Shown here: positions 18,045-19,454 of the stretch, piece by piece
Layout: every line of letters begins with the position of its first letter
Numbering within the stretch: the first letter of the stretch is position 1
Assembly: GCA_947450325.1 (NCBI GenBank)
Contig: CANFUT010000001.1
Location: 62,001-126,000 of the forward strand
Direction: 5' to 3'
Length of the DNA: 64,000 nt
DNA from: Flavobacteriia bacterium
Lineage (GTDB): Bacteria; Bacteroidota; Bacteroidia; Flavobacteriales_D; Crocinitomicaceae
Program-made: the position numbers and the translations under genes
The notes under the pieces: model-generated
What the model was told of the DNA's origin: nothing
Databases searched by the model: none
The model's input: the letters and a program-made list of their open reading frames with translations, nothing else

Positions 18045-18182
18045 TTACATATTTCCCATGGGTGTTTTGATCGCCTTTTGTCCGTTGCATTTGCGCTTGT
18101 GATTCTTTTGTGTTGCGCAAGAATCTATCAATAATGTCAATGCGAAAAGGAAAGTGATTACCAAAAAAAGTTTCTTGAACAT
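18045..18182 (-). CDS. Small lipoprotein (45 residues), function unknown
   Basis: Hand translation from the ATG at 18182 gives a 45-residue product with a basic N-terminus (MFKKL), a hydrophobic core and a lipobox ending at Cys22 (LIDSC). The mature tail of 24 residues is strongly basic, contains a second cysteine in KRKCNGQK, and ends in TPMGNM. The stop is at 18047-18045. Tiny lipoproteins with a Lys/Arg-rich Cys tail of this kind are common in Bacteroidota but have no known role. It is the most downstream of four minus-strand genes in this patch, separated from the nuclease-like gene by 93 bp. Confidence 0.65.
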   Translation of the reverse strand: MFKKLFLVITFLFALTLLIDSCATQKNHKRKCNGQKAIKTPMGNM

Positions 18183-18275: not shown

Positions 18276-18704
18276 CTAAAATTCCTTATTCCATTTGGGC
18301 AATCTTCCAAAAAATTCGAAATGCTTTTTCAACAAACTATTTTCTAAAATCCTAGGACAATCGGTGAATTTATCATTGTGTGTGACATACCAATAAATGT
18401 GCAATTTCTCGATATTTTCAATTTTAATTTGTCGTTTCCAAGATATTTTTCGGGGAATTTTACCAAATTGATGTCCATTTATCATTCGATCCTTTATTCC
18501 ACCTTTGCGGATAAACAAAGAACCGTCTTTTGTAACTTTTCCAGATATGCCAATATAAATAAGTTCTTCATCTCCATCTTTTGAAGTATAAATTAAATAA
18601 ATCCCACTTTTGTCATTTGGTGCATTGCAGACTTGTCTCAGATTTTCATCAGGTGTCAAAAAGAAATGATTTTTTTCATTGTATTTAGATAGCTCGTCAA
18701 ACAT
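18276..18704 (-). CDS. GIY-YIG nuclease-like protein
   Basis: 142 residues. The two signature elements are in place, GIY at 34-36 and YIG at 50-52, and the other catalytic-type residues are also found: Arg73 (IKDRM), Glu121 (ILENSLL) and Asn139 (PKWN). The family cleaves DNA in repair, mobile elements or restriction. Here the protein is short and consists of the nuclease fold alone. It lies 49 bp downstream of higA on the same strand, so it may be cotranscribed with the toxin-antitoxin pair. The target is unknown. Confidence 0.72.
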   Translation of the reverse strand: MFDELSKYNEKNHFFLTPDENLRQVCNAPNDKSGIYLIYTSKDGDEELIYIGISGKVTKDGSLFIRKGGIKDRMINGHQFGKIPRKISWKRQIKIENIEKLHIYWYVTHNDKFTDCPRILENSLLKKHFEFFGRLPKWNKEF

Positions 18705-18753
18705 ACGATTGTTTTTACCTTGGAGTTTTTAAATTCGTTTATGCTGATTTAAA

Positions 18754-19110
18754 TCAATAAACTTGCAATAAAACATCCGTTGGAATATTCAATTTTTCGT
18801 GCAGTTGACGAATCATCGTTAGCGTCAATTTTCTCTTTTTGCTTAGAATTTCACTTGCACGACTTTTCAATCCAATTATGCTTGCGAGATCAGATTGACT
18901 ATAGCCCATTTGTTCCATTCTAAATTTTATTGCTTCAATTGGATCGGGTAAATCGATTGGAAAGTGTTCATTTTCATACTGATCAATTAAAATTCCAAGC
19001 AATTCAAGTTCGTCACCTTTAGCAGTACCTATTTTGGCATCAAAAAGCGTTTCCAATTTTTCGATTGCTTGATTGTAATCGTTTTCTGTTTTGATTGGCT
19101 TGATATTCAT
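18754..19110 (-). CDS. higA: HigA-type antitoxin with XRE helix-turn-helix
   Basis: 118 residues from the ATG at 19110 (MNIKPIKTENDYNQAIEKLE), a start chosen because it follows the higB stop by 4 bp; an earlier in-frame ATG at 19131 would overlap higB. The N-terminal half is the HigA dimerisation part and the C-terminal half (about 60-115) is an HTH with GYSQSDLASIIGLKSRASEILSKKRKL split across helices. HigA binds and neutralises HigB and represses the operon. The palindrome at 19440-19454 is the likely binding site. Confidence 0.88.
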   Translation of the reverse strand: MNIKPIKTENDYNQAIEKLETLFDAKIGTAKGDELELLGILIDQYENEHFPIDLPDPIEAIKFRMEQMGYSQSDLASIIGLKSRASEILSKKRKLTLTMIRQLHEKLNIPTDVLLQVY

Positions 19111-19114
19111 ATAA

Positions 19115-19408
19115 TTAAATTTCGTTCGCATTTACTCTATCGTATTCAGCGTGAGTTCCAATAAATCTCACCCACATCATTTGATAATCAAAGTTTATTT
19201 TTACAATTAATCGATAGTTATTCCCTTTAATATTAAAAACAACTCGATTATCATTCAAAATACTCGCACTAGGATAGTTCTTTTTAATTTCATTTGGATT
19301 CTTCCATTTAGCTTTAGAAGATTCCAAAAACCACGACTTCAACTGTTGCTCACAATCTTCGTGTTTTTCCCAAAAATCACGCAATATTTTTTTTGAAAGA
19401 ATTCTCAA
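19115..19408 (-). CDS. higB: HigB-type mRNA interferase toxin
   Basis: 97 residues matching the HigB family along the full length: an N-terminal MRILSKKILRDFWEKH, then VVFNIKGNNYRLIVKINF and VRFIGTHAEYDRV. These toxins cleave mRNA on the ribosome. The start is a TTG at 19408; this N-terminus is the normal one for the family and no ATG is available, so I keep it. Toxin first, antitoxin second is the usual higBA order. A -7 element and a palindromic operator lie directly upstream. Confidence 0.88.
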   Translation of the reverse strand: MRILSKKILRDFWEKHEDCEQQLKSWFLESSKAKWKNPNEIKKNYPSASILNDNRVVFNIKGNNYRLIVKINFDYQMMWVRFIGTHAEYDRVNANEI

Positions 19409-19424
19409 ATCTTTAACCTTTCAA

Positions 19425-19454
19425 CAAATATATTAAAAGTTCCCAATATGGGAA
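19425..19454 (-). promoter_or_regulatory. higBA promoter and palindromic operator
   Basis: On the minus strand a perfect -7 element TATATTTG lies at 19432-19425, preceded 7 bp upstream by the palindrome TTCCCA-TAT-TGGGAA (19454-19440), which covers the spacer and -33 region. A dimeric HigA bound there would block transcription, the classical autoregulation of toxin-antitoxin operons. Confidence 0.65.

Follow-up and report, generated by a model that had tools for sequence, protein, structure and literature searches.

A higBA toxin-antitoxin pair with a conserved putative operator and an accessory GIY-YIG-like gene downstream in a Bacteroidota genome

The stretch of DNA analysed here (64,000 nucleotides, hereafter the window) carries on its minus strand, at positions 18276-19454, three genes that follow one another closely: higB, higA and a gene for a GIY-YIG-like protein, in that order according to the ORF list of the window. 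The question raised by this locus is whether the nuclease-like gene, which starts 49 bp after higA on the same strand, belongs to the toxin-antitoxin pair as the third part of a dedicated unit, or merely lies downstream of it. The features referred to throughout are as follows, in the direction of transcription.

19440..19454, minus strand: putative palindromic operator TTCCCATATTGGGAA, found by direct reading; motif conserved before other higB genes
19425..19432, minus strand: Bacteroidota-type -7 element TATATTTG, 24 to 17 nt 5' of the HigB start
19115..19408, minus strand: HigB toxin, 97 aa, TTG start; Pfam HigB_toxin, PADLOC and PDB matches
18754..19110, minus strand: HigA antitoxin/repressor, 118 aa (mechanical ORF from 19131); HTH_3, PADLOC and PDB matches
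18276..18704, minus strand: GIY-YIG-like single-domain protein, 142 aa; assigned from residues and predicted fold; absent in sister loci

The toxin-antitoxin pair and its promoter region

Gene order, the 49-bp gap and the palindrome had all been described in an earlier note on this DNA, and the ORFs and direct reading bear them out. The same note held that the patch interrupts plus-strand genes, which is not the case: both neighbours are intact, and the patch sits between them, with an acireductone dioxygenase gene before it and a membrane-protein gene after it. The G+C content of the three genes is 30-33%, vs. 36.1% for the window. An unlisted 45-codon minus-strand ORF with a lipoprotein-like start (18045-18182) lies in the same intergenic stretch, and is present also in one sister genome (G015) and, as sequence, in another (G050).

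The identity of the pair as HigBA, also proposed earlier, is confirmed by matches of HigB to Pfam HigB_toxin (E = 1.5e-33) and of HigA to Pfam HTH_3 (1.8e-7). HigB further matches the PADLOC PD-Lambda-2_A model (3.2e-40) and the HigB chain 5ycl_B in the PDB (1.5e-9), while HigA matches the HigA chain 5ycl_A (4.6e-5) and PADLOC PD-Lambda-2_B, covering positions 1-119 of the 402 in that profile. We take PDB entries 5ycl and 5ifg to be structures of E. coli K-12 HigBA. Features of type II HigBA systems found here are the HigB_toxin domain, a toxin gene that precedes the antitoxin gene, and an HTH antitoxin.

The mechanical ORF for HigA (18754-19131) encodes 125 aa. The true start is probably at 19110, 4 nt past the HigB stop, because the orthologous HigA of G015 has no upstream ATG and begins 4 nt past its HigB stop, and because the resulting 118 aa is the commonest mechanical HigA length (21 of 59 higA loci). 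Across those loci (L075-L104 and L114-L142), the 97-aa HigB ORFs (n = 35) begin with TTG or GTG in 28 cases and ATG in seven; the TTG and GTG starts may damp translation of the toxin.

Just upstream of the -7 box TATATTTG, which we presume to be a Bacteroidota -7 element (consensus TAnnTTTG), lies the 15-nt palindrome TTCCCA-TAT-TGGGAA. Palindromes with six-base arms and a 3-base loop are in themselves no rarity (the window has 25); however, TTCCC-N5-GGGAA occurs only once in the whole window and recurs before other higB genes, so the match is more than chance. The region scanned began 90 nt 5' of the mechanical HigB start and ended 45 nt 3' of it. TT[AC]CC-N5-GG[GT]AA was present there in 24 of 28 loci (window included), whereas 200 shuffles gave 0.015 loci on average; the strict form, TTCCC-N5-GGGAA, was present in 15 of the 28. 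The corresponding counts for a second sample, which had no shuffle control, were 13 of 22 and 11 of 22. Several loci in that sample without the motif have mechanically longer HigB ORFs, and therefore the scanned region may be misplaced there.

A conserved palindrome at the promoter supports autorepression by HigA, the role for which the earlier note considered it placed, and we regard it as a putative operator. E. coli HigA and HigBA autoregulate via promoter-region palindromes, according to the available text of PMC11980606. The stretch from the higB promoter to the nuclease gene contains no TAnnTTTG motif, except one that overlaps the nuclease start codon; because of this, read-through of the nuclease gene from the higB promoter, and thus co-transcription, is possible.

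The GIY-YIG-like protein and its family

Searches for the nuclease at E<=0.001 gave matches in 9 of 200 genomes of the same taxonomic family (single query), 24 of 399 in the order and 28 of 395 in a phylum sample, the order and phylum matches being partly short ones to other, longer proteins. Once duplicates and weak or partial matches (E > 1e-20 to the family profile, e.g., L031-L042 and L068-L074) had been removed, 39 full-length loci were left, i.e., 38 plus the window. In the alignment of these 39 members the window protein has G34-I-Y36, Y50-I-G52, R73, E121 and N139 all in place, just as had been read from the sequence before; Y36, Y50, R73, E121 and N139 are kept in 10 of the 38 others.

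Profile searches of Pfam and NCBIfam gave no GIY-YIG match for the 142-aa protein at E<=1. For Pfam PF01541 in particular, the window protein was unmatched at that threshold and one of 13 relatives matched at 0.087; this miss reflects the limited sensitivity of the model, and a PF01541 match does not define the superfamily. The AlphaFold2 model of the protein has a mean pLDDT of 93.4 and a pTM of 0.88. Foldseek with this model against the PDB returned nothing at E<=0.001, with unrelated entries in the top rows. When candidates were realigned with VIA-align, T4 EndoII ranked first (Z 8.1, a value near 8 that can reflect a common arrangement; rmsd 3.5, 104 aligned), followed by UvrC GIY-YIG domains (Z 7.1), R.Eco29kI (5.9), PD-T4-3 (4.7) and Hpy188I (4.1). 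Because GIY-YIG entries fill the top alignments and the residues are present, a GIY-YIG fold is likely for the protein, with moderate support from the predicted structure.

Other resources added little. The best sequence match among solved structures was at only 0.61, PHROGs gave no nuclease match at E<=0.01, and PADLOC PDC-S14 matched the protein weakly (0.0076); across the family at E<=0.01, PDC-S14 models PDLC04925 and PDLC04923 matched 2 and 1 of the 39 members, respectively, again weakly (best 0.00098), and we gave these matches no weight. Carriage of the nuclease by phages or plasmids was considered and rejected, as tblastn gave no match at E<=1e-5 in phage and plasmid collections. A peptide pattern matched 25 viral stretches, none of which was confirmed.

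Seventeen of the 39 family loci (L047-L063; 16 from one labelled genus and one from another) adjoin a gene whose product begins MSVLVNKDSKIIVQGFTGSEGT and is CoA_binding by Pfam, presumably sucD. All 17 of these copies have Phe, Met and Lys in place of Tyr36, Tyr50 and Arg73, and keep Glu121 and Asn139. From these substitutions they look catalytically dead, and they are candidates for a domesticated pseudoenzyme. We inspected wider neighbourhoods for nine of the other 21 non-window loci, and in five of the nine (a count with no matched control) restriction, AbiH-type or toxin-antitoxin genes lie near the nuclease, as listed here.

L110: specificity subunit of a type I system, 10 bp ahead of the nuclease gene
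L111: McrBC
L109: DUF433-DUF5615 and a higBA-like pair
L105: ParE, with ParD
L106: restriction subunit and AbiH, by sequence inspection

The ORF lists and tallies of the other four (L107, L108, L112 and L113) contain no such defence or toxin-antitoxin genes. The location of accessory nuclease copies near restriction and toxin-antitoxin genes is thus a lead only.

In a FastTree phylogeny of the 39 members, the window protein groups with those of Cerina litoralis (L013) and a Bacteroidetes MAG (L014) at 0.903; L046 joins this group (0.607), as do L043 and L066 (0.992). The closest relatives by identity (60-62%) are from Cerina litoralis, the Bacteroidetes MAG and genome G456, vs. 52-53% for the best relatives in the window's own taxonomic family. 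The tree and these identities fit arrival of the nuclease gene from outside the genus.

Association of the nuclease gene with higBA

A three-gene unit, as the earlier note suggested, could be looked for as a recurrent higBA-GIY-YIG neighbourhood in other genomes; we ran this check from both sides and found none in the sample searched. Neither higA nor higB lies beside any of the other 38 full-length nuclease loci, in flanks of mostly 1.5 kb each side (shorter on one side for L004, 738 bp, and L045, 432 bp), and the weak or partial GIY loci left out of the family gave no higA or higB match either. Starting from higA, matches were found in 62 of the 299 genomes searched in the order and in 121 of 395 in the phylum. 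The neighbourhoods of the best 30 of the order search and 29 new ones from the phylum search (59 in all) contain HigB in 50 cases, and a member of the nuclease family in none of the 58 outside the window (best matches per search; L089 and L098 extend <400 bp downstream of higA). At one locus (L139), a 456-aa downstream ORF has a loose GIY...YIG pattern and no match to the family profile. Among the matches listed, higBA and a nuclease-family gene come within 5 kb of each other in genome G509 alone. The higBA there is divergent and lies about 3 kb from the family member, which is on the opposite strand and carries Arg to Cys and Glu to Gln substitutions. Literature searches listed no higBA-GIY-YIG module.

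We also compared the orthologous site in sister genomes. Of the five genus members searched, four keep the acireductone dioxygenase gene and four keep the membrane-protein gene. G015 has higBA at this site and lacks the nuclease, and in G050 the site is empty of all three genes between intact flanks. DNA identity between the window and G015 is 94.2% for higB and 94.7% for higA, resembling that of the flanking genes (93.1% and 91.7%), so that higBA looks to have been kept vertically at the site, inherited together with it. The nuclease had no match in the other four genus members; its presence here but not in G015 may reflect either gain in the window lineage or loss in G015. The earlier suggestion of acquisition is supported for the nuclease, in the sense that 4 of 4 other genus members searched lack it. 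An alignment of the junctions with G015 and G050 revealed neither terminal repeats nor a recombinase. The missing stretch in G050 (L023) has GGAAAA at both ends, and its loss by microhomology deletion is conceivable. Elsewhere G050 encodes a different HigA homologue, 43% identical and with one in-frame TAA.

The reading we hold with considerable confidence is that of an autoregulated higBA of the E. coli K-12 type whose downstream neighbour, the GIY-YIG gene, is an unrelated accessory gene lying there by chance. HigB would cleave translated mRNA and be neutralised by HigA, which, bound to TTCCC-N5-GGGAA beside the -7 box, would repress the operon. In the 49-bp gap we recognise no promoter for the nuclease gene, which may be transcribed from the higB promoter by read-through; it would be a separately moving gene whose product, judging by fold and residues, probably cuts DNA alone. 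Counting against this independence are the short same-strand gap with no separate promoter-like motif, which makes co-expression likely here, the empty site in G050, which removes all three genes together as a unit would, the divergent higBA near a family member in G509, and the extent of the sample (the best 30 higA loci per search, and nuclease flanks of mostly 1.5 kb). Co-transcription of the nuclease with higBA in this strain is possible, and a dedicated three-gene module is unlikely.

One rival reading is a three-part defence system, controlled as a whole by the HigA operator, in which HigA would sense infection, HigB would halt translation and phage DNA would be cut by the nuclease. Adjacency on one strand, the intact active-site residues and the matches of HigB and HigA to the PADLOC PD-Lambda-2 A and B models are in its favour, as is precedent: the available text of PMC9519451 describes PD-lambda-2 as a three-gene HigBA-like defence system, and the defence systems it lists include a GIY-YIG nuclease (PD-T4-3 also appears in our fold alignments). 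However, the arrangement does not recur (0 of 38 and 0 of 58), G015 has the orthologous higBA with no nuclease, and, going by the same text, the C-terminal peptidase of PD-lambda-2 B and the C protein related to a P4 antitoxin are both missing here. We consider this reading highly improbable. Membership in PD-lambda-2 itself was rejected, given no peptidase match, the partial HigA profile coverage noted above, and a GIY-YIG-like third gene with no PD-Lambda-2 match; a toxin-antitoxin-chaperone system (higBAC) was likewise rejected, as the third protein has no SecB match in Pfam or NCBIfam. Somewhat less remote, though still quite improbable, is a single accessory cassette in which addictive higBA guards the nuclease gene from loss as maintenance cargo. 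Lack of all three genes between intact flanks in G050 and the low G+C they share would suit such a cassette, but the corresponding site in G015 carries only higBA, the junctions bear no mark of mobility of the kinds sought, the nuclease occurs elsewhere with no higBA, and G050 may simply have deleted a stretch bounded by GGAAAA. The family as a whole could also be an itinerant nuclease that settles in restriction and toxin-antitoxin loci and borrows their regulation for phage or plasmid defence, with a domesticated dead copy by the sucD-like gene in one genus. The loci concerned would be higBA here and type I restriction, McrBC, parDE and DUF433-DUF5615 elsewhere; we think it unlikely.

The three-gene module reading does not stand. 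What the locus provides is an operator motif conserved in a widespread higBA clade of Bacteroidota, a natural series within one genus (higBA with nuclease, higBA alone, empty site), and a GIY-YIG family that Pfam misses, in which the accessory copies look active and the chromosomal ones inactive.

Comparison with known systems

With E. coli K-12 higBA the pair shares a toxin gene in first place, HigB_toxin (PF09907), a HigA C-terminal HTH and a palindrome at the promoter. It differs in the operator sequence, here TTCCC-N5-GGGAA, and in the start of 97-aa HigB, mostly TTG or GTG (28/35). PD-lambda-2 likewise has a HigB-like toxin and a HigA-like HTH domain, hence the PADLOC matches, whereas HigA here lacks the fused peptidase and the third gene is unrelated by the matches tested. 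The third protein shares with the GIY-YIG superfamily (T4 EndoII, UvrC N-domain, R.Eco29kI, PD-T4-3) its best structural alignments and the conserved Tyr, Tyr, Arg, Glu and Asn; unlike that superfamily, it has no Pfam match and about 20 residues from YIG to Arg, and both tyrosines and the arginine are lost in 17 of the 39 members of its family.
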